From contig NC_057765.1 of the NCBI RefSeq assembly GCF_010389155.1, positions 5,642,001 to 5,706,000 of the forward strand: a stretch of DNA of 64,000 nucleotides, read 5' to 3'. Below the pieces are notes generated by a model. It was not told the DNA's origin and made no database searches. It saw nothing but the letters and a program-made list of their open reading frames with translations. Source of the DNA: Erigeron canadensis. Taxonomy: Eukaryota; Streptophyta; Magnoliopsida; Asterales; Asteraceae. A program made the position numbers and the translations under genes. Each line of letters starts with the position of its first letter. The first letter of the stretch is position 1. Positions 1,627-34,712 of the stretch are shown one piece after another.

Positions 1627-4600
1627 CTAGTCTTCTCGCCCTTCTTCTTCATCATCTTGGTCTTGGACTTTATTATTTCTTTCTAGGAGGAAGATTTCTG
1701 ATGCTATAATAGAACCTATCATCACAATACCCATGAATATGAACAATCCGATAAAACTTTGAACATCAAGACTTTGTGGAAGAGCACGATTAGGTTGTGA
1801 TTTATCAAGAGCGGATAATCCAAGATACTTTCTCTTCATTTCCATCACAGTTTCACTTTCAGTGACATTGATAACTGCCTCAGAAAAGATCTGTAACAAA
1901 GGTGATCCACGAGCGAACGCCTGAGATCCATATTTAACACATGAAGTTAGCTATAACTCAATAACCATTGTAAAAAAAGTTTTTGTTTCTAAATCCACTT
2001 AAATTTGTCTCAATTGTCAATTTGACTGCTCAATATTTTGTCTTGCTCTCTGCCATACTCCAATGTTTACATACTATTCTCTTGAGCATTTATACCAAAA
2101 GTAAAAATACTAGTTTTACAAATAAATGTTGCTAACTTAACATTATTTACAAACATATGTGAGACAATAAAATAAGAACTGAAAATGAAGAAAGTGAAAA
2201 ACTAAAATAATTCTATTTGTTTATATTGATCGATGCCATATACGGAGTATAAGTGTAAACATTGTTAGTAGATATTTGTAATCCAAAGAATTCCCGATTT
2301 TGAAAGTACTCAATTTCATTTCTCAAAGCCCAAAAAAGCTAGATGAAGATAGAGATAAGAGAGTGGAGTAATGGACTCACAAATGCAATTCCGGATTCCT
2401 GATTTATGGGTCCTTGTTTCATGTAGTTATCAGACCCATATTTGGAAAGAAAGAGATCAATGTACGGGAGCTCATCAAATACGGCATTTACGCTACCATC
2501 GGATAGTGCATTTTTGTAATCTTCATAACCATTGAGAGCTTGTACTTTACAATGGTATTGATCAGTAATAAGATCTTTAATAAAGGATCCGCCTTGATAA
2601 CCTACGTTTTGAAAGCTTGAAGGCAATTTTGGACGCAGTTGATCTAGAGTCAACCATGAGGACAAAGTAGCTGTAAAAATTTGTACTACTACGAATATCA
2701 TACAAAGCCACATAACTAGAACCACCTTAGAGCATCTGTTGAGTATCTTTCCTGCAAAATGGATTCAAAAAATAACATTCTTAGAGACCATTTGGTTTCT
2801 TAGTATGTTCCCTAAAACTCAAGGGGAACATTTAATATAAACATTCAAATATTCATGTATTATGATAAGAGTACCTTCATGGAAGAAGAATGTCGATATA
2901 GGAAACCACATGACCATGATAAGTTGCCTATAGAACGGGATAGCAAATTTTGGGTTCCCAGCACGGTATTCTAATATGGCAAGTGTGATTCCAATTAAGA
3001 CGCATGCACACACTAGTGTGATCCATAGTCTGTTGGTAAATGGTCTTAAAAATGTCCCCAAGGTTTGGTTCCATTCATGTGCAGCATCCACAAGCATATA
3101 AACTTCAGAGCTTAAATAAGGAGCTGTAAAGGAAACATACTGAGTTCTCTTTCCCCTTATGGTGACATCACCCGCCACGGCCTCGCATTTCTACAAGATA
3201 CAAAATCAACCATGAAATAGTTGATAGGAATCAAGTTTATTATATCATATTTTTACTTTGTTGGAATTTACCTACGTTTTCAAATTTCAAATAACTAATG
3301 TGGACTTTAGAAATGAATTCAATTGATTAAAACCGACCCATTACTATTACTCAGGTCCAAATTTGAGGATTATGTTCATTTGAATAACAATGCATGTGGC
3401 ATACGTAAGATTAAACAGAAAATATGTTATTAAGAATAACATAGTTAAGAGTATCCAAAAATATTTGTAGAACCTAGCTGGAGGGAGCAATATAAATAGA
3501 TGTCAGTGTTTATTGTTATAACTACTTTCACGATGCCCGTACAATGCAGCGGTGGTAATGTTAAAGACATTGTGGTAGTGGGGGCGACTGTTGGTGGTAG
3601 ATGCAACGTCGAGTGGTGTAGATAATTGATGTAAAAGTAATTGATGTAAATGATTAATAGATATGTTTTAAAAAATTAAGGACTGATAGTGTAATTTAAT
3701 CATTAAGAGTATTTTAGACGATTTTCTTCATGTAACTTTCTACAAAGGAGTGTAGAAAACTCTTACTTTTAGGCTTTCAAAAACTCTTAATTTTATAAAA
3801 AATATTTCATTAAGTTATTATAGTAATTACATTATTATTCAATCGATTCATTCAACGCAGATAACAAAAAAAAAACTATTCATTTACTAACGTACCCGAA
3901 ATAGACACTCTAAATCACTTGCTTTGTCAAATAGTTCTACAAATATATATACGAGATAAATATAGCATGAACAAATATAATCTAATATTGTGTGTACGTA
4001 CGTGTTTAAGAGAAATATATATACCTGGCCTTCAATGTGCTTTAGAAGGTCATCGTAGGTGCCATTCATCTGCCCCGTCACATTGATGAAGGGTTTGAAA
4101 ATAGGTTGAACGTTGAAGGGTAACTTTTGTAATGCATAACAAAATATCGCTATGGAGAATCCTCCTTCAACTTCATTATGCTCGTTGACTTTAACGAACT
4201 CAGTAAAACCTATCTTTTTTGGAACCCACACTACTAGTGTTGTGCACGGACTTTTCCCTTTCTTTGTAATGTTCCATTTCGGCCCTATTATGTCTTCAAT
4301 ACGCAATATAATCTATCATATATCAAATGCTTTAAATCGGTATTAAATACTTAATACGAGTAAAACAAATAAAGAAATACTCCCTCCGTCCCATTTTAAT
4401 TAACTTATTTTGACTGTTCAAGTCTTTTTCTCCCGACTTTGACCGTAAATATCTTTGTTTGTGTTATATACTAGTTATTGAAAGTTATATTAATGAAAAG
4501 TACATTAAAACTCAATCAATTCATATATGTTATATCGAGTATATATAATACAAATAAAAATATTTACGGTCAAAATTGAAAAAAAAGACTAAAAAAGTTA

Positions 4601-4863
4601 AAAGATGACACTTAATATGAGACGGAGGGAGTAGTTTGAATCATAACAAATATCATGTTAAAAAAAAAAAATTTAACTCAGTACTTCAAAATTTTGGTGT
4701 AAAAAAGTTACTCACCTGCACACACATCCGCACGCCCGTTGATATTAAACTCCTGGACAGAGCGTCTTCTATGGCTGAATTTATATCCGGCGGAGGCCTT
4801 TTCCGACACACAAAGCAAGACGAAAAAGAACACCAGGAAATGGAAAAGACCTTGGTGCTTCAT
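1627..4863 (-). CDS. Glutamate-receptor-like channel lacking the amino-terminal domain (copy A, intact)
   Basis: Five exons on the minus strand: 4716-4863, 4025-4293, 2875-3190, 2381-2751, 1627-1920. All introns are GT-AG and the 1398 nt give 465 aa with no stop. Exon 1 encodes a signal peptide and a basic linker (GYKFSHRRRSVQE). Exon 2 opens S1 (LVVWVPKKIGFTEFVKVNEH). Exon 3 finishes S1 with the ligand-type Arg (GDVTIRGKRTQYVSFTAPY), then M1 and the pore loop (MWFPISTFFFHEG). Exon 4 has M3 (QIFTATLSSWLTLDQL) and S2 (FDELPYIDLFLSKY). Exon 5 has the end of S2, M4 (IGLFIFMGIVMIGSIIASEI) and an acidic tail. Plant GLRs are usually about 900 aa with an LIVBP-like domain first; it is absent here because the signal peptide joins S1 directly. 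The family forms ligand-gated cation channels; ligand and activity are inferred. Intron 1 holds a Stowaway MITE and intron 2 a Helitron-like repeat. Confidence 0.88.
3530..3790 (-). mobile_element. Short Helitron-like repeat in GLR-A intron 2
   Basis: The segment with a GC block (CGATGCCCGTACAATGCAGCGG), GGTGG-rich stretches and a conserved AAAATTAAGGxxTxATxGTGTAA part recurs at about 17608-17936, 23227-23420, 41718-41986 and, inverted, at 26216-26620 and 30562-30900. Its GC block is the degenerate 3' hairpin seen at the ends of the clearer copies. The borders here are approximate. Confidence 0.5.
4380..4631. mobile_element. Stowaway-type MITE in GLR-A intron 1
   Basis: The ends are CTCCCTCCGTCCC and GACGGAGGGAG, the standard Stowaway (Tc1/mariner) terminal inverted repeat. 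Each is flanked by TA (4378-4379 and 4632-4633). It is 252 bp, AT-rich, has no coding capacity, and its arms share the TTTGACCGTAAATA motif in inverted form. Confidence 0.9.
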
Positions 4864-5452
4864 ATATATTTTTTGGTGTTAATATAAACAAGAATTAATG
4901 TCAGTATAGAGCAGAATGAGTGGTAAATACTATACAGACATATAGTCAGAAAGTAATAGGTTGACTTGGTACAAATTGATCCTATAACGACATAAGCCCC
5001 GAGGAAGTGGTGTATATATATAGTGCCGGTGCGAAATACTACTGTAGTTGACTTGGTACAAAGTGATTTTATTACAAGCTTTGGAGAGTGTAACATAAAT
5101 ACATATATAATAAGTTGGTTGCAAGTTTTAATATATAGTTCTATCGCTTGCAAGTTATCTTATTTCAGCAAGTATCGACAAAGTCAAGCGAGATATTTCC
5201 TAGAGTTTTCCCAGCCCAATGTTGATATTTGAAATTTTCAAATTAGTTGTATATTACTAAATTATACGGTTCTTTATGGTTTGTCTCTTCTTACCTTTTA
5301 AAATTACATTGACTTTCAAGGTATGCATTTTTCTACTTGGATTGTCCTTCGCCCAAAACTCGTTAGCAAAAAGTCGGGACGACATACATTTGAGGACAGT
5401 CCGAAAGAAAAAGTACATATCTTGAAAACGGTCTAAGTGGAAAAGTGCATAA
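4864..5452. promoter_or_regulatory. GLR-A upstream region with TATA box
   Basis: Read on the minus strand, ACTATATATATACACC lies at about 5009-5023, some 150 bp before the ATG at 4861-4863. The same arrangement of an (AT)n/TATA tract shortly before the signal-peptide ATG is present in copies C and D. The GTTGACTTGGTACAA motif at about 4961 and 5048 also recurs upstream of C and D. This closeness to the ATG argues that no upstream ATD-coding exon is missing. Confidence 0.5.
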
Positions 5453-6785
5453 GAGGGTGCCTAATGGGTTTGTCCCCCACTCGTTCGCAAGTGACGGAGG
5501 AGTCCACACCATTGGGTGGGACTCGTTCCAGACACTCGTCCGTTCCATTAGTTCCTGCTGGGACGAAAGCATGAGCTACTTTTGTTTTTGTATTTTTTTA
5601 ATCCTAACGGCTTGTAGACCAAGGAAGGTGACAAAACACAAGTTTCAGATTTTGGTACAACAGGCCCATGTAACGACTGTTTTGACCAAAATCAGTTCAA
5701 AATAGTGACACTTTTAGTCTCTAACGGCTAGTTTTTGTAAAATCCTATATATACACTTCCATTTAAGCATAACTCACACTACTCTTTCATATATTCAGAT
5801 ATATTATAGCAATGCACACTTTTATATACACAAATTATAATGAACAACATGTTTCCCAACTCGCTTAACGAGTATCTACATATGGGTGAAAAAACAAGCA
5901 GATGTTACCTAGACTATTATTGCAAATGTGTGTTTGAACTTTATAGGGGTGAGTACTTGCGCAGACCAACACCAGAGGACATACAACACTTGTATGCTCG
6001 ATAAGAGGAGCTTCATGGTTTCCCTGACATGCTTGGTTGCATTGATAGGGGGGTTTAGGCATAGGGCAAAGTGGACGACCAACCGAGGTGCGATTTTTTA
6101 GGGGGCCCGACTTTATATTTTTTTTAACGTATATATATAAAAAAATATATGTTATTAACTAAGCTCGTTACAAATTTTAACAAATATCCAATAATTAAAC
6201 AATAGCACTTAACAAAAAAAGGTTTACTATAACATTTATCATTGTTTTTATATCTTAGTTTATTAAAATTATAATTGTTGCATCTATCACCCAGACCTTT
6301 TTTTTTCTCTGCCGAGGTTCATAAATCTTCAGAGACGGCAATGTGCATTGATTGCATGCATTGGCCTTGGAGAAATTTTCCCAAAGCATGACAAGGAGCT
6401 TCGAGATCGACCTGTGCATCATGTTTTTCGTCATAATCTTACGAAGCATATATGGCGCTTCCCGTGAATGGTTTTAATAACCTTGCTTTATAATTTGTGC
6501 TTTTTTTAATCAACGATTGTAATGATTTTTTTTTTATAAATAATGTAATATTTTTATTTTTTATGAAATAATGTAATGTTACTATTTTTAAAGAAGTGTT
6601 TTTAATTTTAGAGGGTTAAAAGTGTAAATTTTAGATAAAATGGTAGAATTAAATAATTGGTGGGTCCAAGACCAGTCCTTGTATTGAGTATGTTTTGGGG
6701 GGATTAGTCGTTAGAATGTTTTTTCTGATGTGACACTGACTGTGACTAGTCCTTCAGGGATGAGTGTGTATCACTGGGCACCCTC
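5453..6785 (+). mobile_element. PIF/Harbinger element with transposase remains
   Basis: The left end GAGGGTGCCTAATGGG and the right end ...CACTGGGCACCCTC are inverted, each flanked by TAA (5450-5452 and 6786-6788), which fits the PIF/Harbinger TWA target. A second GGCACCCTC/TAA lies 15 bp further (6792-6803), so the terminus is doubled. The subterminal block at 6650-6775 is homologous, inverted, to 28200-28345 in the ORF1-bearing element, so both are one family. The inside is rearranged and holds transposase fragments. Confidence 0.75.
5884..6470 (+). pseudogene. PIF/Harbinger transposase (ORF2) fragments
   Basis: From 5884 one frame reads TSRCYLDYYCKCVFELYRGE, then EYLRRPTPEDIQHLYAR, a stop (TAA, 6002-6004), then EELHGFPDMLGCID. 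These match the plant Harbinger DDE transposase in order, including the region leading to its first catalytic Asp (GCID). Around 6335-6400 a second piece reads IDCMHWPW, and about 6400-6460 one resembles the C-terminal ..HNLTKHIW stretch. The parts between are deleted and the frame is broken. It cannot make an active transposase. Confidence 0.75.
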
Positions 6786-8089
6786 TAACTTGGCACCCTC
6801 TAATCGCATATATTGGGTATGTTTGGTGTAAAAAGTAGTAGTAATCTCTATCTGTATTTTTACTACATTATAACATATTTTTTTTGGTCAAATTTTTTCA
6901 ACTTTTCAACTAGGTTTTTGAAAACCCTATAATGCCCTATTATTTAAATATATTTACCTAAAATAACTATAATAACTTTAGAAAAAATCTCAGTTACTCA
7001 TTTTCATATGTCTCCTCAAATCTCAACCATTCATTTGTTCTCTCTCATCCATAAATCATTTTATTTCTCTAATTCATTCAAAATCTTTTATCTCAAAAAC
7101 CGTACATCGATAAACTATAAAAGTTATATGGGTGTTCTTAAATTATAATGCTCTTTCATTAGAGAGGTCATTCGATATACTTTCGAAGAATTTTTAAATC
7201 CAATAACGGAGCCAGTACAACTAAGGCATTTGGCTATCACAATCTATTGACATATCACCTCATATGACTTATAATACTTTATTACCTATCACTCCCACTA
7301 TCTCACCGTCATAATGCGCTGATACCTTCTCTAGTATTATTAGACAAACCACATGGATTATCCGTTTAAGTTACTCTCAATTTTATATTTTTTTAATGCC
7401 AATTTACTCTCACATTAATATAGTAGTACTATATGAGTATATAAGATACTTCCTAGAAATTTCCTCAATGTTGACATTTGAAATGTGAAAATTAATATAT
7501 CTTCATATCTTAACTTCGGACTATTTTTTCACCCAATTTTCTAAACCGTCCAAGGAAAATCAATATTTTCAAAATTCTGTTGGAACAATTGTCATGTATC
7601 GATTGGTGGCAGATGGTTCCCGATTGCGATGTTTGACGTAATTAAGAAGCCAGAACGTACAAAGCAAGCAAGCAAATTCCAAGATGATATCAACATTATC
7701 GTTGTTATCAATTAATTAAATTAGCATAAACCATCATTTGCAACTCGCATTTGTAACATCTTTAAAATTAGAGGCGATACTAGGAAAAAATTCTAAAGGG
7801 GGCAAACTTAGAAAACTTATGAAAAATAAATCTAAAAGGAGGCAAAATGTTAAAAACCTATAGAAATTTTTAAATTTTTAAAAAAAATTTAAAAATACAT
7901 GACAAAATTTAAATTTAGAGGGGGCATTGGACCCCCTTGCCCCCCTTTAGTACCGCCAGGTGAAATTAACAAACCAAATGGTAATGTTTCATGCCATAAA
8001 CTAACAACTGTTTCATTTTTTTTTTATATTTTTTTTGCCGGATGTTATTATACTACTCTTCCTATGTCACTCCAAATATTACTCTGGAG
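6786..8089. other. Spacer with duplicated GLR flank and a possible MITE
   Basis: Two parts can be named. About 7440-7640 (CCTAGAAATTTCCTCAATG... to CCCGATTGCGA) is homologous to 19070-19290 and 35560-35760, the upstream flanks of GLR-C and GLR-D. At 7773-7957 a segment begins GGCGATACTA and ends TAGTACCGCC, nearly inverted ends that suggest a short MITE. In the rest I see nothing. Confidence 0.45.
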
Positions 8090-8563
8090 CAATGTTTTAA
8101 AAACCGGTATTTTAGTTATACCGGCGTGGAAAAATTTTCCGGTATTACCGGTATTATCGGTAATACCGGAAATACCGGCCGGTATGACTATTTTTAATTT
8201 ATTATATTTTTTTGTGTAAAAATCTTACAAAACTTGTTACAATTTAACAAAAATAGTCAAACTGCAATTATAATTACTCAAAAATAACACCAAATATGTA
8301 TTTCATAACAAAATATAGGTTTTAAAGTTCACAAATAACAAAAAATAACATTAAAGTACCATAAAAATAATTTTTTTAAAAAATAAAAATTTATTTTTTG
8401 AAAATACCGGAAATACCGGTATGGTAATACCAGAAAATACCGGGAATACCGAAAATGCCGGCCGGTATTGAATAATAAAAATACCGAAAAAATACCGGAC
8501 TTAAAATACCGGCATGGTCTCCGATACCAGTAATTCCGGTAATTACCGGTATTTAAAACATTG
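8090..8563. mobile_element. hAT MITE with dense ATACCGG subterminal repeats
   Basis: The ends are CAATGTTTTAAAAACCGGTA and TACCGGTATTTAAAACATTG, inverted and preceded and followed by the 8-bp direct repeat CTCTGGAG (8082-8089, 8564-8571). That is a clean hAT signature. About twenty TACCGG/CCGGTA motifs crowd both ends, typical of hAT transposase-binding sites. It is 474 bp with no coding potential. Confidence 0.9.
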
Positions 8564-10377: not shown

Positions 10378-11365
10378 GACATAACTAGAACCACTTTAGT
10401 GTATCTATCTACCACCAACAAATAATAATAAGGATTGACATGTTTTTAAAACGATACGTGATGTAATTTTTGATCAATACTTGTCTTTTTAATTTATTTA
10501 TTTTATTAAATTAGCTTTTATAGTTGTATATAGATTCAATTTTGTTATAAGACTTGTAATTAAACTCTAACTATTAACTTATAAATACAAAACACATTAT
10601 AACCTTATTTGATTGATCAATTTTTCATTAATAAAATTATCTTTTTTACTTTCTCAATTCTTCAACACCTAGTACTCTAACTTCGATCATCGGTTTACCT
10701 TAACTATAATTTTTTATACTCACCAATCATATATGAGACATATTCGAATTTATTTATAATACATATTATATAGCTACTGTACATTGTACCGATATTAGGA
10801 CTAGTCTCGGAATAAACGAAGATATAACTATCTTAAATTCGGTTTATTTTTCTAGTATGCTCACTAAAATTTGAAGTTAACTCTTAAGCAAAAGAAGGAA
10901 TATTTTTGGAAAGCGCTGAGTTATGTATGGAATAAGAAGGCCCCACGTACATGACTATCATAGTGAGTTGCCTATACAATGACAAGCGTGATTCCAATTA
11001 AATTAATGATTCTCGTAGTCTACGGGTAAATGGTCTTAAGAAGGTACACAAGCGTTTTATGGACAACCCTCATTAGACTTCATTATTCTCGTTCTTTTTT
11101 TTTTCTTTTTTTTAACAACGGTCTATTCTACTCCTACGAATAAATTGCACGTATGTCTAAAAACCAAAACTCTAAAAAAACCACTTATCAATCCACCCCA
11201 CAAATATGGGAAGTGAAACTCGAAGCCATCTAGATCATGCCAAAGTCAAAGAACTTACTAATAAATCTTGTTTTTTTGGAACCTAAACAACTAATGTTGT
11301 GCCTAGACTTTTCCATTACTTTGTAATGTTCCATTTTTGCCCTATAATGTCTCCAATATGCAATG
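10378..11365 (-). pseudogene. GLR relic F (decayed copy of the ATD-less receptor)
   Basis: Three pieces align with the intact genes in their order. 10378-10410 matches the start of exon 4; about 10945-11070 matches exon 3 (GAGTTGCCTATA..., CAAGCGTGATTCCAATTAA, GGTAAATGGTCTTAAGAAGG); about 11060-11360 holds decayed exon 2 (GGAACCTAAACAACTAATG to CCCTATAATGTCT). Frames are broken and the stretches between are lost or replaced. Just beyond, 11377-11510 carries the same MITE found in intron 1 of GLR-C. It is non-coding. Confidence 0.7.
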
Positions 11366-11376
11366 ATATAAAAAAG

Positions 11377-11510: not shown

Positions 11511-12029
11511 ATAAAAAAAACACCAAAATCCAACCAAATTTTATCAATTATTACACAGTCAATTACTAAATTTGCTTCATCAATTGTTGTTTCGTTTGGA
11601 TACATAGAAGCTCTCTAATTGACAAGTAGAATCTAAGTAGAATATAGAGAGTTAGAGAGTTAGAAAAAAAGAGAAAGAGATTGTTAGTTGTATCATGTCC
11701 AAAATGTACAACCATTTGTTCAAAGGCTACATTCAGATAACAAAGAGGGTATTTATACCGATATATACAAACTATTTTGAACCTTCTATGGTTTACAAGA
11801 TTACAATCCATGCCATCAAATATTTTTCTAACACATCGAACATAAAAGTTCCTTTTAGAAAGAAAAAAAAAAGATACATGTTCCACGTTCCTGTAGATGA
11901 ACCCTTGTTATTAACACACAATGATAATGGAAAGTGATTAACCATTAGTATGTATACTTTGTATTCCATAAAGTCAAAGATTTATGCATGCTAATTAATC
12001 AAGAAGTTTTACTTGAATTGTTCATATAT
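11511..12029. other. Spacer, duplicated 3' flank of a GLR copy
   Basis: About 11740-12000 (GTATTTATACCGATATATAC..., AACCTTCTATG, TTTGTATTCCATAAAGTCAA) is homologous to 32300-32420, the 3' flank of GLR-D. I see no independent gene in it. Confidence 0.5.
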
Positions 12030-12054
12030 ATTGTAGTTAGTTCTTTCGGCTCTT

Positions 12055-12156
12055 CTTCTTCATTTTTTCTTCTTCTTCTTCTTCTTCTTCTTTTCTTCTT
12101 CTTCTTCTTCTTCTTCTTCTTCTTCTTCTTCTTCTTCTTCTTCTTCTTCTTCTTCA
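12055..12156. repeat. (CTT)n microsatellite in the former GLR C-tail
   Basis: About 100 bp of almost pure CTT, read GAA (Glu) on the gene strand. Copy D has a short version of the same tract (about 32478-32522) inside its intact reading frame, where it codes for a run of Glu. Confidence 0.95.
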
Positions 12157-12633
12157 TCTTGGACTTTATTATTTTTTTCAAAAAGCAAAATTTCTGATGC
12201 GATAATAGCAACCATCATCACAATACCCATGAATATGAATAATCCGATAAAACTTTGAACATCTAGACTCCAAGATACCTTCTCTTCATATCAATCATAG
12301 TTTTACTTTCAGTGACATTGATGATCGCCTCAGAGAAGATCTGTAACAGAGGTGATCCACGGGCGAATGCCTGAGATCGATATTTAACACATGAAGTTAG
12401 CCAGGGTCTTTATTCCATAACGTGTACAAGAGTGATAATCAATTAAGACTGGAATTTTCAACTGAACCATTCTATAGTTACTTTTGTCTCAAAAGCCATT
12501 TAAAATTTTGTCAATACAGTCAATGTAACCTCTCAATATCTTTAACGTTCAATAAAAAGCTTGCATGATTTTTCTATATTTGACTCGCATTTATGTTGTC
12601 AGATCTTGGAAATCTTTTGGACTAGTCTCTTTA

Positions 12634-12712
12634 GGGCGTTGTCAGGATTTGAACCCGTCATACGTGCACCAAAGTTAAGGGTGTTGGTCATTTATCCGCT
12701 CTACCTATAAAA
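12634..12712 (-). other. tRNA-like relic in an intron of GLR-B
   Basis: On the minus strand GGTAGAGCGGATAA is followed, after an arm that can pair (ACACC...GGTG), by GACGGGTTCAAATCCTGAC, which resembles a T arm with its TTCAAAT loop. The acceptor stem is not convincing. Copy D lacks it in the same intron. It may be a tRNA-derived SINE piece or an inserted organelle tRNA remnant. Confidence 0.3.
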
Positions 12713-13671
12713 AGAAAAAATTGAAAATTTTTTGGATTACTCCAGTATAACTTAATAGTGTTTGTTGTATCAAGAGTACTTTGTAAACACGATGAACCCG
12801 GAGGTGTCAAATTATGATTATTTCAAAAGGCCAAAGGCTGAATATCCCAATCTTGAATAATACCTATATGATTTACTCTTGTATAAGACAGACATGCCTC
12901 TTGTTCTAGGCCCAAAATTCCCAGTTCCACTTTTAACTTTTTAAGTGTCATAAACCCGGAAATGGGAATTCTGCATTGGCTTTTGGCATTGTCCGGATTT
13001 GGCACCACTGGGTATGTTCACAGATTATTCATTTATTCTCTTGACAATACCTAAACTACTAACACTATACATAAGGCTAATCCAAAAAGTTTTAGATTCA
13101 AAATACTCAACATCAATTCTCAAAGCATTAAAAAAAACAAAGATCTTGAATAGGAGAGAAGGGAAATGACTCACAAATGCAATTCCAGATTCTTGATTTA
13201 TGGGTCCATGTTTCATCTAGTCAGACCCATACTTGGAAAGGAAAAGATCAATGTATGGGAGCTCATCAAACACAACATTTACACTACCATTGGTTAGTGC
13301 ATTTTTGAAATCTTCATAGCTATTGAGCGATCGTAGATTGTATCCAGAACAATTGTATTGTTCTATAATAAGATCTTTAATAAAAGATCCGCCTTGATAT
13401 CCTACGTTTTCAAAGCTTGAAGGTAATTTGGGACGTAGTTGATCTAGTGTCAACCATGAGGATAAAGTAGCTGTAAAAATTTGAACTACTAAAAACATCA
13501 TACAAAGCATCATAACTAAAACCACCTTAGTGCATCTGTTGTGTATCTTTCCTGCAAAATTTTAAATGAAATTGTAACTCTCTCAAATATTGTTTGCTTT
13601 TCTAATATGTCCTCAAAATTCAAAGTAAATGCTTAAGCAAAAAGAAGAAAATCATTTGAAAGAATTATACT

Positions 13672-13803
13672 ATTATACAATTTGGGACGCAGTTGATCTA
13701 GTGTCAACCATGAGGATAAAGTAGCTGTGAAAATTTGAACTACTATAAATATCATACAAAGCATCATAACTAAAACCACCTTAGAGCATCTGTTGAGTAT
13801 CTT
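13672..13803 (-). pseudogene. Duplicated 5' half of GLR exon 4
   Basis: The stretch encodes HKPIKILNRCSKVVLVMMLC and on through QIFTATLSSWLTLDQLRPKL, i.e. the M3 region, then is cut. It lies directly upstream, on the gene strand, of the exon 4 of pseudogene B, so the pseudogene contains this exon start twice. It is a local duplication and cannot function alone. Confidence 0.85.
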
Positions 13804-13879
13804 TATAGGTTTATGCAAAAGTTTAAATATTTAAGATATTATTTAGTTAATCGAGGATTACATTAAAATAGGGGAGGAT

Positions 13880-14631: not shown

Positions 14632-17476
14632 TCACATTTTCGGCTTGTCTTCTTTATCATATTGGTCATTGACTTTATTATCTTCTTTACATAGAGAAAT
14701 TTCTGATGCTATAACAGCAGCTATCATCACAATCCCCATAAATATAAATAATCCGATAAAACTTTCAATATCAAGACTTTGTGGAAGAGCATGACTGGGT
14801 TGTGATTTATCAAGAGTGGATAATCCAAGATAGTTTCTCTTCAAATCCAGCATAGTTTTACTTTCAGTGACATTGATAACAGCCTCAGAAAAGATCTGTA
14901 AAAGAGGTGATCCACGGGCAAATGCCTGAGATTAATATTTGACACAAAAGGTTAGCTAGGGCCTTGATTTATTTCATGAGTGAGAATTTATCAAGAGTAG
15001 AACTATATATCGACTTACTTTATCCTGGGTAGTAGTGTATATCTCTATCAAATTTATAAGGTGTTTGTTTTAAAGCTCATTTGATTTGATGAAAAAAAAA
15101 ACTTAATCGACCTAATGAAAAAAATCTTAATCTACGTAGTAAGTGATGATAAAGGTTGTATTTCTAAAAATGGATAATGCGTATCTTGATTTACTCTTGT
15201 TCAAGCCCAGCACATATATATGTGACTTTTGTCTAAGCCTATAATTCTCAATTCCAGTTTTTGCATTTTCCCATAGTCTAGATTTATACTCCGGGTGTAC
15301 TATGTTTACAAATTAATCTCTTGATGATACGCGAGCAAAAAACACTTTGGATTTATAAATGGTACATCCAAAAAACTTCCATATGGTGAAACTGATTAAC
15401 CTCAAAGGCTCAAAGCACAAAAGAATGAACAAGATATAGGAATTATATTCTCAACTCATCAAGCCCAATATAAGCCCAATGGGGTTCACCTCTAAAACCA
15501 TATGGTGATAAAAGTAGTAGCCCACAACCTTATATACAGGCTTAGAGTTTATTCTTTTTCCAATGTGGGATATGGGTTTTACACCCAACAGAAGAAATAC
15601 CCAGTGCTTACACAAATATCGTGAGAAAGAGAGAAGAGAAGGGACTTACAAATGCGATTCCAGATTCTTGATTTATGGGTCCATATTTCATGTAGTTGGA
15701 TCCATACTTAAAAAGGAAAAGATCAATGTACGGGAGCTCATCAAATATAGCATCGACACTACCATCGGATAGTGCAATTTGAAATTCTTCATAGCTGTTG
15801 AGTGTTCGTAGATTGCATCTAGAACAATTGTATTGTTCAATAATAAGATCTTTAATAAAGGAACCACCTTGATATCCTACGTTGTCAAAGCTTGAAGGCA
15901 ATTTGGGATGCAATTGATCTAGAGTCAACCATGAGGATAAAGTAGCTGTAAAAATTTGGACTACTATGAATATCATACAAAGCCACATAACTAGAACCAC
16001 TTTAGAGCACTTGTTGAGTATCTTCCCTACAAATTAAAATGGATTCAAAAAATAACTTTCTTAGCTACCATTTGCAATTCTAGTATATATTGGATAAGGG
16101 GACATTAATTGGAAAGAGGCATTAACTGTTAATGTATCTTGATATGATCAATACCTTCATGGAAGAAAAACGTCGATATAGGAAACCAGGTGACCATGAT
16201 GAGTTGCCTATGGAATGGGCCAGCAAATTTTGGGTTTCCAGCCCGGTATTCTAAAATGGCAAGCGTGATTCCAATTAAGATACATGCACAAATTAGTGAT
16301 CTCCAAAGTCTTTTGGTAAATGGTCTTAAGAAGGTCCACAAGGTTTGGTTCCATTCATGTGTTGCACGCACAAGCATATAAACTTCAGCGCTTAGATAAG
16401 GAGCGGTAAATGATACATATTGAGCTCTATTTCCCCGTATAGTGACATCACCGGCCACGGCCTCGCATTTCTACAAGATACAAAAATGAACCATGAATTA
16501 TTTGAGCTTATAAAGTTTAAGTTAGCAATTCTACAAATATGTTGTACTATAAAAATGAATTTGGTAGATAATTAATATCAGAGAATTATACCCGGCCTTC
16601 AATGTGCTTTAGGAGTTCATCATAGGTTCCATTCATCTGTCCTGTGTCATTGATGAAGGGTTTAAAAATTGGTTGAACGTTGAAGGGTAATATCTGCAAT
16701 GCATAACAGAATACGGCTATGGAGATTCCTCCTTCGACTTCATTTTGCTTGTTGACTTTAACAAACTCAGTAAAGCCTGCCTTTTTTGGAACCCACACAA
16801 CTAATGTTTTACATGGACTTTTCCTTGGCTTTGTAATGTTCCAGTTTGGTCCTATAATGTCTTCATTCAACATACAATTGTGTATCAAAACCGCCTAAAA
16901 TCAGTATTGAATGCAAAAAATAAAGCAAATAATAAAGAAACACAGTAAGGCTTGGAACAGATATTATGATCAAATTATAATGAACCATACAATATGATTT
17001 ATCATACGTGTTTTAGCTAACGTTTGCAATTAGGAATTTAAGATCAAGGAAAAGGATTGATTCTTTCATAAATTAAAAATTCGAGGTTCTCGATAAATAT
17101 ATATAATATATGGGGTTTGCTAAATACAGCCCTTAGGGTTGGATTTAAGGTGCATAAATTATTTGTAAATTTACCATGAATATCAGGGGTGGGCTTTTAA
17201 TATGGAAGGTATAAGTTGTTTTATACACTGTATTTAACATTTCCCATAATATATATGTAAGTTATTGAACCAGTTAATGACACTCAAAAAGCACTTGCTG
17301 ATATGTAACACATATATACCTGCACACACATCTCTGTGTCCGTTAATATTAACTCGCTCCTGGACAGAGCGTCTTCGATGGCTGAATTTATATCGGGCGG
17401 AGGCTTTCATCGACACACAAAGCAAGACTAGAAAGAGCAACATAAAATTGAAACGACTTTGCTGCTGCTGCTGCAT
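14632..17476 (-). CDS. Glutamate-receptor-like channel lacking the amino-terminal domain (copy C, intact)
   Basis: Exons on the minus strand: 17320-17476, 16592-16860, 16155-16470, 15650-16026, 14632-14925, joined by GT-AG introns to 1413 nt and 470 aa without a stop. Exon phases equal those of A and D. The ATG chosen (17474-17476) opens MQQQQQSRFNFMLLFLVLLC, a signal peptide. Then come the basic linker ARYKFSHRRRSVQERVN, S1 (LVVWVPKKAGFTEFVKVNKQ; TIRGNRAQYVSFTAPY with the ligand-type Arg), M1, pore loop (TWFPISTFFFHEG), M3 (IFTATLSSWLTLDQL), S2 (FDELPYIDLFLFKY) and M4. Compared with typical plant GLRs, the pore loop has Pro-Ile where Ser-Phe is usual, and the SYTA gate motif reads IFTA. It likely acts in a membrane as a channel subunit; this is inferred from family only. 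Confidence 0.88.
15425..15592. repeat. LTR-like fragment in GLR-C intron 4
   Basis: The segment has AACCTTATATACAGGC, CCAATGTGGGA and a final TTACACCCAACA, a word order typical of the ends of small plant LTR or TRIM elements. No matching start or target duplication was found. The other GLR copies lack it in this intron. Confidence 0.35.
17112..17245. mobile_element. 134-bp MITE in GLR-C intron 1, copy 2 of its family
   Basis: The ends GGGGTTTGCTAAATACAG and TGTATTTAACATTTCCC are inverted repeats. The flanks carry a 9-bp direct repeat ATAATATAT (17103-17111, 17246-17254), as in Mutator-type MITEs. The region is AT-rich, so the target repeat alone would be weak evidence. Confidence 0.75.
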
Positions 17477-17564: not shown

Positions 17565-17607
17565 AGTGGGAAATAGTTTGACTTGGTACAAATGATTATA
17601 TATATAT

Positions 17608-17936: not shown

Positions 17937-19692
17937 TATAAGATTCGAGAAAAGTAACATAATTATCTGTTGCAGGTTTTATATGGTCAGTTAGAGTCAT
18001 ATTGCAAATATATAAAATTAAAAATATTCGACATTATTGATTTGAAAATGTTTGCTTTGCTAGCTTGTAAGTTAACTAATTTCGTCAAGGGAGACATCGA
18101 CCGTTTCAAGTGAGATATTTCCTAGTAACTTCCTCAATATTAATTAACATATACATTAGAGATGAGTGGTAGGTCAGTAATGACTCAAAGGTAATTATAT
18201 TTTTTTAATTTGAAATAAAAAGCTAAAGTTATTTAAAAACTTTTGAAAATTTTGTATCAAATATAGCCTTATTGTTAAAAACTACACAAATACATTTTGA
18301 AGTTACCGTTACAGCTACCAGCCAAACACCTTTAATTAAAAAAAAAAAACTCTAACACTTTGTTTATAAGCTAAGCTTACAACTACAACTAAAAGCTACA
18401 TGTACAAGTTATAGTTACAAGTTGCAAATACTAGCTAGAACTATTTTTTATCAAATATACCCAAGGTAACCAAATAACATACTTTAATTTGGCGTCATAT
18501 ATATTTTTCAGATTTACACCGGCCCTGAAGCTTACATCTTTATATACGTATGATATATTGTTCACCCGAAAATCAAAGGAAACTCAAGAATAGATATAAC
18601 CATCAACGTAATTATTGTTTTAAGTAATATGAGATTAAGTTTAATTAAGTACATATGAAAAATCAATCGGGAAGCAACAATCTGAGAAGGGATTATGTTT
18701 CAAACTGGTTACAATAACCAACGATTACAAATAAACAAAACAAGAAAAAAAAAATGACAAAAAATATAGATAACGTCATTAATTGATTAATCAATTGATT
18801 CCCCATTATAATATGTATTCGTTTTAAGCATCCAAATAATTTAGACCGGTCTTGAAATAGGTTGACTCGGTACAAGTGAATGTATAACATAAGCTTTTAG
18901 AGAAATAACATAATAATGTGCTACATGTAATTACAAGTACGCATTATTGATCAGTTAGAGTAGTCATATTACAATAAAATATCCTAATTATAATCTACAT
19001 TACCGTCGCTTAATTGCAAGTTATCTTATTTTAGCAAAGAGAGGCACCGGCAGTAAGCTAGTGAGATATTTCCTTGAAATTTCCTCAATGTTGACAATTG
19101 AAATATGAAAATTGTTATCTCTATATATCTCAACTTCTGACTAGTTTTATCACTCAATTTTCTATGTCGTTCAATAAAAATCAATATGTTCAAAATTTTG
19201 TCATGGAACAATTGTCAGTAGTATCATTTAACGGCTTCATAAGTTCATATACGGATATTCGTGGTAAACGTTTCCCGATTGCGATAGAATCCAATGAGTT
19301 AAGAAAATTAAGGAACATGGTGATATTGATCATCTCGTAGTTAAAAGTTAAAACTCTCTTATATATGCACTTGTTCCCATGTCAAAATTAATACACCAGT
19401 TAGTTATGTTACATGTCATAATTAACTCATAATTGTATTTGTAAAGATTGGCTAAAAGTAATTAATTTCGAGTTAACAATGGCCACAATTTTATATCTAA
19501 TTCATAATATGTAATGCAATACGCCATGTACATGACTTGTCATATGTATGTACCCCAACAAGCTAAAATGTTAGTGCATCTCGTTCATCATAACTGTTTG
19601 TATAATTGTATATATGCACCTAATTAAGGTTGAAGCCACGTGAAAATCCAAATGGGGGCTAAATCTAATAATATATGTTTATCACATCGACC
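17937..19692. other. Duplicated GLR upstream flank, no gene seen
   Basis: Segments such as CTAGTAACTTCCTCAATATT (18120) and 19010-19300 match the flanks at 7440-7640 and 34930-35760. The sentence-like block ending GAAGCCACGTGAAAATCC (19630) matches 35925. Open frames here are short and not conserved between the copies in frame, so I call none of them a gene. Confidence 0.5.
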
Positions 19693-26620: not shown

Positions 26621-26969
26621 TATATGTATAAGAGAATGATTAATGTGTTTAATATGTATACCTAAAGATAGACCTAAAAGAAAGATAAACTTATGTGACA
26701 AGATCAATGATAGAAATGATGAAAGAAAACTAGTAGAAAATATGTGTTTATGTAATGTATTGGGTAGGTCTACTTTTTGACATATGAAATTATAAATTTA
26801 ATGCATATACCCAAGTTTAGGTATGGAACCCCTCACGTAACAATATTTTAATATTTGTTGTATAATTAATAAATCACATGCCCCCCATGTTTATGGTTTA
26901 AAAAAAATGTATGTGAAGGGTTCCATACCTAGCTAAGCTTGGGTATGAGACAATCTTATACTATCTTCT

Positions 26970-28160: not shown

Positions 28161-28181
28161 AAGATATGTGATAGGTCCTTA

Positions 28182-30169
28182 GAGGCTCCCTAATGGACAC
28201 CACAAATCCACCTAAGACTAGTCCCTATCAGCGCCACATCAGCAAAAAACACTCCAAGGACTAATCCCCTCAAAATGCACCCAATGGACTCATCCACCAA
28301 AGACTAGTCTTGGACCCACCAATTATTTAATTCTACCCATTTATCCAAACTTTACACTTTTAACCCTCTAAACTATTAATAAAATACATTTTTAGTCCAT
28401 TAACACAAATTATTAACAAAACACACAAGTTCATTAGAAATAAAAATACAAATACATTTAGAACATAAAAAAAAAACAAATTACAATAAAATAAAGCAAA
28501 CAACCTAAAAATGAAAAAAAAACACAACAACATTTTTATTTTTTTAAATTAAACCTAAACTAATTGGGACCGAAAAGGAAGTCTTTGTACTCCGCCATGA
28601 GTTTCTTTTTGGCTTCCTTGATATAATTCTTCTCCTCATCATCACATTCTGTTTTGTCCATGAAAGAAAGAGCAGTATACATGGTGCGCTTCCTTTTTTC
28701 CTCACGAATGACAGCCAAAGACATTTGTTGTTCATCCAACACCGCCTCCTTTTTACACCCAAGTCGGTCGAGTCGGGCGGCTAGGTCGGAAGCTGAAGAA
28801 CGAGCAGACCCCGCATCGGAAGAAGCAGATGTTCGTGATGCCTTTGACTTAGTAGGGGGGCGCGTATAAGTATCCTGGCCGAAGAAGTCATTATCACCAA
28901 GGTCCACCGGCGCGAATTGGGTCCCCTCCTCCTCCTCATCTTCACTATCAACAACATTAAGAACATTTTTCCTATTATGCAAGCTTCGGCCCAGAACATC
29001 ATGACCGGATGGAGCGAAGAACTTTGGCTTATCTTTCACAAGCAACCAACAATCGTACATGGTAAACTGAGTTTTGGTTTGAGTAAAGTACTCTGATCGC
29101 GCTTCCTCCATTACTTGGGCATCGTTCTCACCACTGCATCGATGACCATCATAGCCTTTCCAGATTGCGTTGAACTTTGACACATTTGTTCTGATCTTTC
29201 TCCACTTGCCACTTATCTGATTGTGGTTTCTTGTGTTGTTGGGGAATCTTGCATTGTACTTATCTATGATTTTCCCCCAAAAAGAATCAACAGATTGGTC
29301 TTTGTCGACGTATGGATCTTCTGTAGCATCGATCCAACACTCAGTGAGAACTTTTATCTCAAGCTCGGTCCAATTTGACGAGTTTGCTGCAGGTTCTTTT
29401 GGTTGTTTGCTTTTCTTGGTGTGTTTGGACATGCTTTTGACCCGACCCTTTTTTAGTTGTGCTTCAGAAATGGATTGGGGGGTGGGAACAGATTCCGGCA
29501 TGGGAGCAGATTCGTGTGTGGGGGTGGGGTTACATGGTGGTGTGGGAAACGAGTGTTGATCGGGTTGTTGAAATTGTGTAGCTGACGACGACCCCCCATG
29601 GTAGAAATTAGGGGGTTGTGCAGCGGCAAGTGAAGCATAATAAGCTGCCATGAATTGAGCATAACGGGGGTCATTTGGTGGGGGGATGAAGGGTGTTTGT
29701 GGTGGCTGGTTAGAGTACGATTGATTAAAATCGTTCTCGGCGTTGCTCCAGAAGTCGTTTTCTTTTTGGTAGTTGAAGTTTGACATGATTTTCTGCTTAA
29801 AATGGTTTTATATGTGTGACTATATCTAAATAATGCAAGTGTGGTGTGTTCTAGTGCTTATGGAGGTGTACATATAGGCTTTTTCAAAAACTAGTCGTTA
29901 AAGGACTAAAAGTGTAAAGTTTTTGAACTGCAGGTGGTCAAAGAAAACGCTACAGGGACCTGTTTTGCCAACTTTTGAAAGTTCAAATTTTTTGTCTTCT
30001 TCCTTAATTTAGCCGTTGCATTAAAAAAAAAAAAGGATTAAACAAGCCGTTGCATTCGTCCCTGCAGGAACGAAACACCCGGATTAGTCCCCCGAACAAA
30101 CCAGGGACAAGTCCCACCGTCGTCCAAGGATGTCGAACGAGCGAAAGAACGAGTCCATCAGGGAGCCTC
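28182..30169 (-). mobile_element. PIF/Harbinger element carrying ORF1 only
   Basis: The ends GAGGCTCCCTAATGGAC and GTCCATCAGGGAGCCTC are inverted, flanked by TTA on both sides (28179-28181 and 30170-30172), the Harbinger target. The 1988-bp element has one long ORF (28560-29786, minus) and no transposase. It is related to the element at 5453-6785, which keeps transposase pieces. Confidence 0.92.
28560..29786 (-). CDS. PIF/Harbinger ORF1 (Myb/SANT-like protein), intact
   Basis: 408 aa, single exon. The N-terminal 90 residues are Asn/Gln/Pro/Tyr-rich. At about residues 136-215 lies a trihelix/Myb-SANT-like domain (NWTELEIKVLTECWIDATED, SFWGKIIDKYNARFP, ISGKWRKIRTNV), and at about 255-400 the C-terminal part often labelled NAM-associated (GHDVLGRSLHN..., a DSEDEEEEG acidic patch, a Ser/Ala stretch and a charged helix ending KDFLFGPN). 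In autonomous Harbinger elements ORF1 acts with the transposase, helping its nuclear import and DNA binding. Such ORFs are often misnamed glutathione S-transferase T3-like in plant annotations. The start is the first ATG, preceded by an AT-rich leader within the element. An open frame of this length suggests recent activity or selection. Confidence 0.85.
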   Translation of the reverse strand: MSNFNYQKENDFWSNAENDFNQSYSNQPPQTPFIPPPNDPRYAQFMAAYYASLAAAQPPNFYHGGSSSATQFQQPDQHSFPTPPCNPTPTHESAPMPESVPTPQSISEAQLKKGRVKSMSKHTKKSKQPKEPAANSSNWTELEIKVLTECWIDATEDPYVDKDQSVDSFWGKIIDKYNARFPNNTRNHNQISGKWRKIRTNVSKFNAIWKGYDGHRCSGENDAQVMEEARSEYFTQTKTQFTMYDCWLLVKDKPKFFAPSGHDVLGRSLHNRKNVLNVVDSEDEEEEGTQFAPVDLGDNDFFGQDTYTRPPTKSKASRTSASSDAGSARSSASDLAARLDRLGCKKEAVLDEQQMSLAVIREEKRKRTMYTALSFMDKTECDDEEKNYIKEAKKKLMAEYKDFLFGPN

Positions 30170-30204
30170 TTAAGATGATTTGGCTTTTTTGTAAAGTTTG
30201 CCAA

Positions 30205-32190
30205 TAAAAAGATTATTAAAATAAGAATAACCGTATCTAGAATCTAGATATATTCCTTGACTTTCGAACAAATCAAGAATAGATATCAAACTTGTCAATC
30301 AAAATATTATGCTTCGTCATTCAATAATTGATATATTTCTATAATTTGTATATAATGCCGGCCAATCCAAACAAACTGATAAGGACAGACGTGGTAAGTC
30401 GTTCAAAACTTTGACACACAAGTAAATACCTAACGTCCTAACTGTTTCACGTAATAAGGACAGACGTGGTAAGTCGTTCAAATATTAATTAACAAAGACT
30501 TTCAAAGTAAATAATGTAACGTTTCAGTACCTCATCCAAATTAAAAATTTTAACCAGTACATCTATACCTACTTATAAAAATTATAGCCCTTTTAATTTT
30601 AAAAATGTTTAAGTTACATTAGACGATATGACAGAAATACCCCTCTTTTTATTTTAATTACCCTTTTTTATCCACTAATTTAAATATTTAATTATCACCA
30701 TCAATATACCTAAAATACCTTTAATGAAATAAATTATACCACCAATCTTTAAATTTTTAAAATAACTACACTAAACATAATTATATCAATTAAATTTACA
30801 TGAACAACCTATACTACTCGTCGTTACTATCACCAGTCGTCACCACCCATTACCACCGCATTGTCGTCGTCACCGTCGCATTGCGCGGACACCATACTGT
30901 TAACATCATTTTTGTTAGATAATGTTAGTCTCACAAACTATAAAATTCATGAGGGCTTTTTGGCATGTGTAAAAATTGATGTAAATGAGTTTGTGAGAGC
31001 AACATAATCTAACATAAATAATGTTAACATCATATAATATTTTCCCTATATATTATACTCATATTAAAGATAAAAGATGAACAATCATTAAGAATAATTT
31101 AGCTTTTGTAGACTGATTATAGATATTTAAGCAATATATCTATATTCTTTTGGAATGAAATCCTTTTTTTTTTTTTTACCAATTTATAGTGAATTAGTGA
31201 AATGAAGTGCGTGTGAGAGGTTCTAGAGCAGAAATATACATATTTAGTCAATTTATAGTTTTTTTTTTTTTATGTTGATTATTAGTTTAATTTAATGTGT
31301 AACGGAGAGATGTACGCTCTGTGTTAATTTATCTATATTGTTTTTTTTTTTGCATATAAACATGGTATCCAGCTTACCAAAATTTTTTGAAAATAGTGTG
31401 TAATTTTTTTATTTATTTTTTTTGGAAACATTTTCAGCATCAACAATTAAAACAACTAAAATAAATCTAGATTTAAAACAACATTAATGCAAATTTTCCA
31501 TGATGACAAAGCCACGATTGGGTTTGATTACTTGTGATGCACTTGTATCAAATTGACCCTTTCTTTTTCAACATGGGCCGATCCTGCCACCAATCCTTGG
31601 GCCACATCTTGGACTGAGATATCTGGGCTGCCAGTGCAAGTACTTCTAACAAATATAATGTTTCCCTTTCAAACAATTTAATCATACTTCCTTATTTGAC
31701 TTTTCTATCTCGTCTTCCAAGCTTCATGTCATTTCCAAAACTAGGGTTATTAATCGTTATTCTTGAACTACAATTGCAAATCTAGCGTGCGTACATGTGA
31801 AAAAATGATGATAATCCATAGCCTTCATGTAAAAGAATTTACTAAAATTCAAAAACTTTTTAGTTAATTAGCTAAAGCTAGCGAAACCAAGTTATTAATC
31901 TTGATTTATGTTTTAACCAATATATAGTTTTATAATTGCACCTTTCACTATAGCTTAGTAAATCAACAAACAGAAAAAAAAAAAAAAAGGAAAATAGGTG
32001 CGTACTTAAATTGTATCCCTTTGAAGTACATTGTATTTCTGGGAAAAAGATTTATATGTGCCAACATTTATACAAGTATAGAAAGTTTAATTTCACCATG
32101 AGACTTTTTAGGACATGTACGACCAAATATTAGGTGTGTTGTCACAAAATAAATACTCGTTGAATGTTCTTGTATTATGAGTATACTTCT
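30205..32190. repeat. Segmental duplication, copy 1
   Basis: 30205-31140 is homologous to 41360-42010 (for example CAAGCAAAATATTATGCTTCGTC, GGCC.A.CCAA.TCAAACAAAC, TAATTTAG.TTTGTAGACT). 31250-32190 is homologous to 52490-53330 (ATGCAAATTTTCCATGATGA, CATCTTGGACTGAGATATCT, GGGCTGCCAGTGC). The order is the same, so the second copy was split by later insertions. No gene is visible in either copy. Confidence 0.85.
30562..30900 (+). mobile_element. Short Helitron-like repeat
   Basis: It begins A/TCTATACCTACTTATAAAAA and ends near the hairpin words CGTCGCATTGCGCGGACACC. The duplicated partner at 41600-41670 lacks it, so it inserted in this copy after the duplication or was lost from the other. The 3' CTRR is not standard (CTGT). 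Confidence 0.6.
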
Positions 32191-32428
32191 AATCAAACAC
32201 ATAAAACATCGCCACACAGGAATGGAACATAACCATTAGCATCTATACATTTTATAGCAGTCACTAATTTAGTTATGAATGCTAATCGGATAACAACGAG
32301 GGTATTTATACTGATATATACAAGTTATATTGAACCTTCTATGAACCCTTGTAATCAACACACAATACATTTTATAGAAGTGTTTAATCTTTGTATTCCA
32401 TAAAGTCAACTGTTTATGCGCATGCTAA
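32191..32428. other. 3' flank of GLR-D
   Basis: It is homologous to 11740-12000 downstream of pseudogene B. It probably holds the 3' untranslated region of GLR-D; no clear polyadenylation signal was chosen among several AATAAA-like words. Confidence 0.4.
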
Positions 32429-34712
32429 TCAAGAAGTTTTACTTGAATTGTTCATATATATTGTAGTTAGTTCTTTCGGCTCTTCTTCTTCTTTTTCCTC
32501 TTCTTCTTCTTCTTCTTCTTCATCTTGGACTTTATTATTTTTTTCAAAAAGCGAAAATTCTGATACGATAATAGCGACTATCATCACAATACCCATGAAT
32601 ATGAATAATCCGATAAAACTTTGAACATCTAGACTTTGTGGAAGAGCACGACTAGGTTGTGATTTATCAAGAGTGGATAATCCAAGATACCTTCTCTTCA
32701 TATCCATCATAGTTTTACTTTCAGTAACATTGATGACCGCCTCAGAGAAGATCTGTAACAAAGGTGATCCACGGGCGAATGCCTGAGACCAATATTTAAC
32801 ACATGAAGTTAACTTGGGCCTTTATTCCATGACGTGCACAAGATTTTGAAATGTTTTTGGATTACTCTTGAGTGTTTGTTGTTTCAAGAGTAATTTGTAA
32901 ACACGATGAACCCGGAGGTGTCAAATGATGATTATTTCAAAAGGCCTAAGGCTGAATTTCCCAATCTTGAATAATTCCTATGTGATTTACTCTCTTTTTT
33001 AAGACTGAAATGTTTACAAATTATTCATTTATTCTCTTGACAATACCTAAACTACTAACACTATACATAAGGCTAATCCAAAAAGTTTTAGATCCGAAGC
33101 ACTCAACATGATTGCACAAACATCCTGAATAGGAGAGAAGCGAAAGGGACTCACAAATGCAATTCCAGATTCCTGATTTATGGGTCCGTGTTTCATGTAG
33201 TCAGACCCATACTTAGAAAGGAAAAGATCAATGTATGGGAGCTCATCAAATACGGCATTTACACTACCATCGGATAGTGCATTTTTGAAATCTTCATAGC
33301 TATTGAGCGATCGTAGATTGTGTCCAGAACAATTGTATTGTTCGATAATAAGATCTTTAATAAAAGATCCGCCTTGGTATCCTACGTTTTCAAAGCTTGA
33401 AGGTAATTTGGGACGTAGTTGATCTAGTGTCAACCATGAGGATAAAGTAGCTGTAAAAATTTGAACTACTATAAATATCATACAAAACATCATAACTAGA
33501 ACCACCTTAGAGCATCTGTTGCGTATTTTTCCTGCAAAATGAATGAAGATATAACTCTCTTAAATATTGTTTGCTTTTTCTAGTATGTTCCTAACATTCA
33601 AAGTAAATACTTAAGCAAAAAGAAGAAAATCATTCGAAAGAATCATATGTAATGAGACTAATATAAGGAACATTTAAATGAGGTATTAAACTATTAATGT
33701 ATCTTCATATCCTTACCTTCATGGAAGAAGAACGCTGAAATAGGAAACCATATGACCATGATGAGTTGTCTATAGAACGGGCCAACAAATTTAGGGTTCT
33801 TAGCTCGGTATTCTAAAATGGCAAGCGTGATTCCAATTAAGATATATGCGCTAATTAGTGATTCCCATAGTCTTTTGGTAAATGGTCTTAAGAAGGTCCA
33901 CAAGGTTTGGTTCCATTCATGTGTAGCATGCACAAGCATATAAACTTCTGCGCTTAGATATGGAGTCGTAAATGAAACGTATTGAGCTCTATTTCCCCGT
34001 ATAGTAACATCACCAGCGACCGCCTCACATGTCTACAAGATAGTAACTAATTGATTAATCATGCTATAATATTATTGCTTATAATAAGTTTTATTGTATC
34101 ACATAATTCTTAATTAAATACGAAATTTCAAATACATTTTATTCAATTAATACCCGGTTTTCAATGTGCTTTAGGAGTTCATCATAGGTGCCATTCATCT
34201 GTCCCGTGTCATTGACGAAGGGTTTGAAAATCGGTTGAACGTTAAAGGGTAATTTCTGCAATGCGTAACAAAATATTGCTATGGAAAATCCTCCTTCGAC
34301 CTCATTATGCTCGTTGACTTTAACAAATTCAGTAAAGCCCGTCTTTTTTGGTACCCACACAACTAATGTTCTGCATGGACTCTTCCCTTGTTTTTTAATG
34401 TTCCAGTTGGGCCCTATAATGTCTTCAACATGAAGTCGTATATCAAAACGGTCTAAAATTAGTACTAAATAGGTAATTAAAGAAATAGTAAGGCTTGGAA
34501 CAAATATCATGACCAAAAATGAATCATACAACATATTGGCTAAAATGTAACATATAAATACCTGCACACACATCTCCACGTCCATTACTATTAACTCGCT
34601 CCTGGACAGAGCGTCTTCGATGGCTGAATTTATATCGGGCCGAGGCCTTTACTGACACACATAGCAAGACTATGAAGAACACCAGGAAATTGAAACGACC
34701 TTGGTGCTGCAT
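32429..34712 (-). CDS. Glutamate-receptor-like channel lacking the amino-terminal domain (copy D, intact)
   Basis: Exons on the minus strand: 34562-34712, 34154-34422, 33717-34032, 33155-33531, 32429-32782, joined by GT-AG introns to 1467 nt and 488 aa. Exons 2 and 3 have exactly the lengths of A and C (269 and 316). It has a signal peptide (MQHQGRFNFLVFFIVLLC), basic linker (RYKFSHRRRSVQERVN), S1, M1, pore loop (WFPISAFFFHEG), M3 (IFTATLSSWLTLDQL), S2 (FDELPYIDLFLSKY) and M4. The C-tail is longer than in A and C: a Glu-rich stretch coded by a GAA/GAG repeat (about 32478-32522 on the plus strand as CTT/CTC), then a novel end (PKELTTIYMNNSSKTS). It is the most compact copy, with introns of 121-372 bp. 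Function as a cation channel subunit is inferred from the family. Confidence 0.88.

Follow-up and report, generated by a model that had tools for sequence, protein, structure and literature searches.

Is a plant glutamate-receptor-like (GLR) gene without an amino-terminal domain (ATD) on its way to elimination, or can it belong to a lasting class of channel genes? The question is raised by a gene cluster in a 64,000-nucleotide (nt) stretch of the horseweed (Erigeron canadensis) genome, contig NC_057765.1, positions 5,642,001 to 5,706,000, referred to here as the window. We consider it likely that this cluster is a tandem array from a real clade of ATD-less GLR channels widespread in Asteraceae, and that the absence of the ATD, commonly interpreted as gene decay, may represent a lasting design in this family. 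The novelty is the existence of a stable, expanded and lineage-wide ATD-less GLR clade.

The tandem array

The minus strand of the window contains, between position 1627 (the final base of the gene A stop codon) and position 34712 (the first base of the gene D ATG), three intact five-exon genes of one family, designated A, C and D. Gene A (1627-4863; exons 4863-4716, 4293-4025, 3190-2875, 2751-2381 and 1920-1627) encodes 465 amino acids (aa), gene C (14632-17476; exons 17476-17320, 16860-16592, 16470-16155, 16026-15650 and 14925-14632) encodes 470 aa, and gene D (32429-34712; exons 34712-34562, 34422-34154, 34032-33717, 33531-33155 and 32782-32429) encodes 488 aa. The exon lengths are 148/269/316/371/294 nt in A, 157/269/316/377/294 nt in C and 151/269/316/377/354 nt in D. 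Thus, the initial annotation of this DNA was correct in describing three open genes of 465-488 aa with identical lengths of exons 2 and 3 (269 and 316 nt).

The spliced genes have no internal stops, and all introns are of the GT..AG type. These models were spliced from the window DNA alone, and the exon 2 acceptors were picked during splicing; the gene A product is identical to the public E. canadensis protein P0002. In gene D, a second in-frame acceptor is located 30 nt upstream of exon 2 (exon start 34452) and is used by the public E. canadensis model P0004, which, compared by eye, agrees with D except that its exon 2 is longer, one piece is absent and the end differs. The layout of signal peptide, S1, M1-pore-M3, S2 and M4 proposed earlier was reproduced: the start is signal-peptide-like, PF00060 and PF00497 exceed the Pfam cut-off in all three proteins, and each carries the HRRRSVQE linker.

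An Asteraceae-wide clade

A protein search with D gave 79 proteins, 76 of which belong to Asteraceae, while an 828-residue probe, in which a foreign ATD was placed in front and the D part alone was scored so as to admit full-length relatives, gave 62 proteins, including 42 from Asteraceae. The three protein searches performed reach only relatives sharing short words with the query, and in the third, scoring was limited to the 7995 candidates with the most shared words. The D and probe searches combined comprise 80 proteins of Asteraceae, distributed over 16 genera (Erigeron, Artemisia, Tanacetum, Arctium, Lactuca, Deinandra, Tagetes, Helianthus, Cichorium, Centaurea, Rutidosis, Mikania, Smallanthus, Cynara, Taraxacum and Bidens), which span three subfamilies. 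PF01094, the ATD profile, is listed for none of these 80 relatives. In size, 38 of them fall into the range of 455-535 aa, five are longer, and many public models are shorter than 455 aa. A signal-peptide-like start was recorded by a simple hydropathy rule in 31 of the 38; this tally, like that of the pore loop given below, represents a simple text pattern. Two of the five longer proteins, P0080 and P0082 from Tanacetum (>535 aa), are family members joined to retroelement-type domains and are probably annotation fusions.

The identity of D to the lettuce, burdock and sunflower rows is 72-76%. Escallonia proteins with a partial ATD are 40-45% identical over less than half of the query, and the first full-length ATD-bearing match to the D part of the probe is 37% identical.

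The initial tree, with 71 rows, was built from 23 of the 80 Asteraceae relatives, A, C and D, five Escallonia and six Fabales proteins, three ATD-less proteins of Cornus and Apiaceae, 29 ATD-bearing proteins, AtGLR3.4 and P0098. For the careful tree (67 rows), four long-branch ATD-bearing rows (P0077, P0091, P0097 and P0120) were dropped; AtGLR3.4 is among its rows, and sequences labelled GLR4 as well as Arabidopsis members of clades 1 and 2 are absent. In this tree all 26 Asteraceae rows (three from the window and 23 public) form one clade with 100/100 support, divided into subclades of 19 and 7 rows. ATD-bearing GLRs were also found in Asteraceae (P0155, P0174 and P0175), including the 882-aa P0155 of E. 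canadensis itself; two of these were placed in the tree, both outside the ATD-less clade, P0175 being the one without a placement.

The search for an ATD exon

Since the models of A, C and D derive solely from DNA, one can suggest that a distant or diverged ATD exon is present and was simply missed, and an ATD that is strongly diverged or finely split could indeed escape tblastn. However, no PF01094 match was found in A, C or D up to E 1, and tblastn of the window with ten ATD pieces (seven from full-length GLRs, three from Escallonia) gave nothing better than E 0.28, the 29 kb upstream of D included. As a control, the pieces of P0155 and P0094 match other pieces at 2e-9 to 9e-126, protein against protein, which is an easier task than finding an ATD divided among exons. 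Full-length GLRs of six plants match the window only from about S1 onward, a stray match at E 0.30 being composed of S2 residues.

The sequence directly before the genes leads in the same direction. The initial annotation placed a TATA tract shortly before each signal-peptide ATG, and such tracts are located 78-87 nt upstream of the ATG in D, 81-90 nt in C (with another tract at 133) and 160 nt in A, while the closest in-frame stop lies 9 nt upstream in D, 54 nt in C and 18 nt in A. Moreover, A, C and D share a 21-base upstream block, TTTGTACCAAGTCAACCTATT, all copies of which are on the minus strand: at 4955-4975 for gene A (by pattern match), and, with one mismatch each, at 17572-17592 for gene C and 34805-34825 for gene D (by pattern match and by alignment of the three upstream regions). 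A fourth copy with two mismatches (18856-18876, pattern match) lies about 1.4 kb upstream of C, and among the family matches in the window no gene copy except C stands behind it. Four matches at no more than three mismatches were thus obtained in the window against 0.01 expected. With the shared block, the stops and TATA tract before every ATG, the lack of an ATD match and the agreement of public models from 16 genera, an annotation artefact appears highly improbable, and a hidden ATD exon in the window was rejected.

Maintained genes or decaying copies

The array could also be regarded as a set of decaying tandem copies, with ATD loss as one stage on the way to elimination and A, C and D as remnants with frames still open. 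In favour of this, the same array contains relics of other copies, both on the minus strand: pseudogene B (12002-13827), consisting of an extra exon 4 piece (13827-13669), a stop-containing exon 4 (13551-13175) and a disrupted exon 5 (12409-12002), and a scrap of exon 2 (S1) with stops (11271-11375; tblastn, 63% identity, E 4.6e-7). With its stop codon omitted, exon 4 of pseudogene B differs from that of D at a synonymous divergence (dS) of 0.10-0.12. In addition, many public family models are shorter than 455 aa, and the available part of PMC4995503 reads ATD loss as a possible elimination of redundancy, the pear gene PbrGLR2.11 being unexpressed.

A ratio of nonsynonymous to synonymous substitution (dN/dS) near 1, together with lack of expression, had been set as the sign against a stable gene design, and such a ratio was not seen. 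Among the three window genes the whole-gene ratio is 0.26 (A-C), 0.18 (A-D) and 0.22 (C-D) by NG86 and 0.31, 0.21 and 0.27, respectively, by YN00, at dS of 0.33-0.46. The ratio is 0.15-0.20 in the part from S1 to the membrane, and constraint is looser in exon 1 (0.21-0.63) and in the C-tail (0.20-0.93, by NG86 only, over 21 codons). When 2000 copies per gene were evolved neutrally and the frames staying open were counted, none remained at 0.20 changes per site, 0-2 at 0.17 and 8-17 at 0.10; at 0.2 neutral changes per site, each gene gains about nine stops. The simulation argues against a long decay of A, C and D. Together with three intact frames, dN/dS of 0.18-0.26 at dS of about 0.4 and ATD-less relatives in 16 genera, to some of which D retains more than 70% identity, this makes the decay of the whole array unlikely. 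The earlier suggestion of a stable gene design, as opposed to three separate truncations, is therefore supported by the family-wide ATD-less clade, by dN/dS well below 1 and by a window in which no ATD exon was detected.

Pore, pocket and predicted structure

The nearest sequences and structures to these proteins are plant GLRs; the solved structure closest to D by sequence is AtGLR3.4 (E 5.6e-53, residues 69-473 of D). In the predicted model M1, the pore helix, M3, M4 and the ligand-binding domain (LBD) are all present; the LBD fold resembles that of solved plant GLRs, and the M4 helix lies within residues 421-463 at a pLDDT of about 50-74. The pore loop is shorter by one residue, with x-E-G-[K/R] at the place of the common H-[R/K]-E step; among the 74 Asteraceae relatives where the loop was located, 67 have EG with K, R or E after it. 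M3 of A, C and D reads IFTATLSSW in place of SYTAxL, the first residue of SYTA being replaced by Ile in 26/26 Asteraceae rows and in none of the 45 others. Of the pocket, checked at six positions, the main subclade has conserved most residues, and the presumed side-chain Arg is Lys in all 19 of its rows.

The Ile replacement and the altered loop may also point to dominant-negative or “decoy” subunits, which would be made, join ATD-bearing GLRs and, carrying no current themselves, tune or silence them. All three genes have an in-frame acceptor-like TTTTTACAG 81 nt into exon 4, the use of which, seen in the public model of D, would delete much of M3. Yet the pore helix, M1, M3, M4 and the LBD are complete in the predicted model, and the altered loop is itself conserved, so we regard the decoy role as doubtful.

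Several observations weigh against a clade of functional channels. The evidence consists of DNA and protein sequences and a predicted model. The public model P0004, by splicing at the internal acceptor of exon 4, loses 27 residues of the pore loop and M3, and the membrane part of the predicted structure has a pLDDT of about 60-78. At least one of the six pocket residues is missing in 3/19 rows of the main subclade and in 6/7 rows of the second, and 7 of the 38 full-size relatives fail the rule for a signal-peptide-like start. Copies of the array do decay, as the relics between A and C demonstrate (pseudogene B at 13.8-12.0 kb, the exon 2 scrap at 11.4 kb), and 94-131 of 2000 neutral copies are still open at 0.05 changes per site, which makes a recently begun decay of a single gene possible. 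Finally, 6 of 18 Escallonia proteins are listed without any PF01094, although their models may be faulty.

Origin of the ATD loss

In the careful tree, Escallonia is the sister group of the Asteraceae clade (100/97). PF01094 was detected in 10 of the 11 Escallonia proteins scanned, where it spans profile positions from 87-102 to 149-270 of 353, that is, the middle of the ATD; the five Escallonia rows of the tree have gaps at M1 and the pore, probably due to a prediction fault. Sister proteins that retain at most the central part of the ATD suggest a stepwise ATD loss in the line leading to Asteraceae. The ATD-less Cornus P0149 branches next (99/97), and a group of Cinchona, Sesamum, Phlomoides and Apiaceae (96/88) is mostly ATD-bearing, with Apium P0157 and Heracleum P0159 as exceptions. 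Both Cornus P0149 and Apium P0157 carry the name isoform X2, so the absent ATD may reflect splicing or the gene model.

A second ATD-less clade (100/100) belongs to Fabales and includes Psophocarpus P0076, Quillaja P0167 and Bauhinia P0164, P0166, P0168 and P0169, which have a hydrophobic start shortly before S1. A constraint uniting the Asteraceae and Fabales rows alone was rejected (p 0.0068). One that also includes Cornus and Escallonia was accepted (p 0.39), so a single shared beginning of ATD reduction is conceivable. The minimum number of changes of the ATD state on the tree is five, or three once the rows of Cornus, Apium, Heracleum and P0093 are removed. Given these tests and counts, two separate ATD losses, in the Asteraceae line and in Fabales, are the simpler reading, with no proof. 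P0098 from EukProt, an ATD-less GLR of 463 aa that begins with a hydrophobic stretch, has a long branch in the tree.

Proposed function and known systems

Judging from the anatomy of the proteins, their likeliest role is that of an amino-acid-gated channel subunit. The protein would enter the secretory path through its own signal peptide, its clamshell LBD would still bind an amino acid, and it would form part of a four-subunit pore, the ion selectivity of which may be unlike that of clade 3 GLRs, given the shortened loop with x-E-G-[K/R] in place of H-[R/K]-E. In the absence of an ATD, assembly would be held by LBD and membrane contacts, giving either a homotetramer or a subunit that joins ATD-bearing GLRs, perhaps in the way insect tuning ionotropic receptors (IRs) join their co-receptors.

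The Asteraceae proteins share the LBD fold and channel plan with ATD-bearing plant GLRs such as AtGLR3.4, from which D differs in the missing ATD, the shorter pore loop and the altered M3 motif, at 30% identity over S1-M4; neither PF01094 nor SYTAxL, which characterise canonical ATD-bearing plant GLRs, is found in A, C or D. The clade does not group with AtGLR3.4 and has Lys where the pocket Arg of clade 3 GLRs is presumed. Animal kainate-binding proteins are half-length ATD-less ionotropic glutamate receptors (iGluRs), unlike the horseweed proteins in being animal proteins. The bacterial GluR0 is without M4 according to the available part of PMC11479355, whereas the Asteraceae model has M4; in that part a lacking ATD is mentioned only for GluR0, and the accessible text of PMC10359422 mentions GLRs merely in passing.

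The initial annotation knew of no described plant family without ATD. According to the accessible portion of PMC4995503, 11.03% of plant GLRs have lost the ATD, GLR1&2 accounting for 74% of this loss, and the genes concerned are mostly tandem duplicates. The statement thus needs correcting, since ATD-less plant GLRs were already on record, there as scattered domain loss and possible elimination of redundancy. Such genes, with pear PbrGLR2.11 among them, resemble the horseweed array in the missing ATD and tandem duplication, and are set apart by description: loss events and elimination there, a family-wide kept design here. Searches of open-licence literature, outside which most subscription journals lie, showed no paper on an Asteraceae clade of ATD-less GLRs.

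The closest likeness, one of architecture as described in the available parts of PMC6472016 and PMC2924276, is to insect tuning IRs, which are ATD-less iGluR offshoots with short N-termini forming multigene families, two ATD-bearing IRs acting as co-receptors. Ligand residues are mostly kept in the main Asteraceae subclade, in contrast to IRs, which miss some or all of them (the same part of PMC2924276). We tentatively suggest that Asteraceae may have independently evolved a counterpart of tuning IRs: expanded ATD-less subunits for amino-acid sensing, with a changed selectivity filter, paired with ATD-bearing GLRs and broadening what signalling channels can sense. Escallonia, with its shrunken ATD, would be an intermediate and Fabales a second case.

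Other features of the window

Outside the array, a leucine-rich repeat (LRR) receptor-like gene at 53785-56667 (plus strand) has its frame cut by two stops (frame ends 54327 and 55719), with LRR domains in the two pieces scanned. An open 415-aa frame at 28560-29807 (minus strand) has a NAM-associated match under the curated cut-off. Retrotransposon gag and zinc-knuckle frames at 57058-57939 (plus) and 63034-63789 (minus) occupy the right end of the window, where G+C is highest.

Implications for plant GLRs

To our knowledge, little is known about the role of the ATD in plant GLRs. In animal receptors it governs assembly and allosteric control, as stated in the available parts of PMC4995503 and PMC2924276. 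A natural clade of ATD-less channels with half-way sister proteins would offer a direct means of probing the function of the plant ATD, and its altered pore loop bears on what determines the ion selectivity of GLRs. It is also a warning to genome surveys in which ATD-less GLRs are discarded as fragments.
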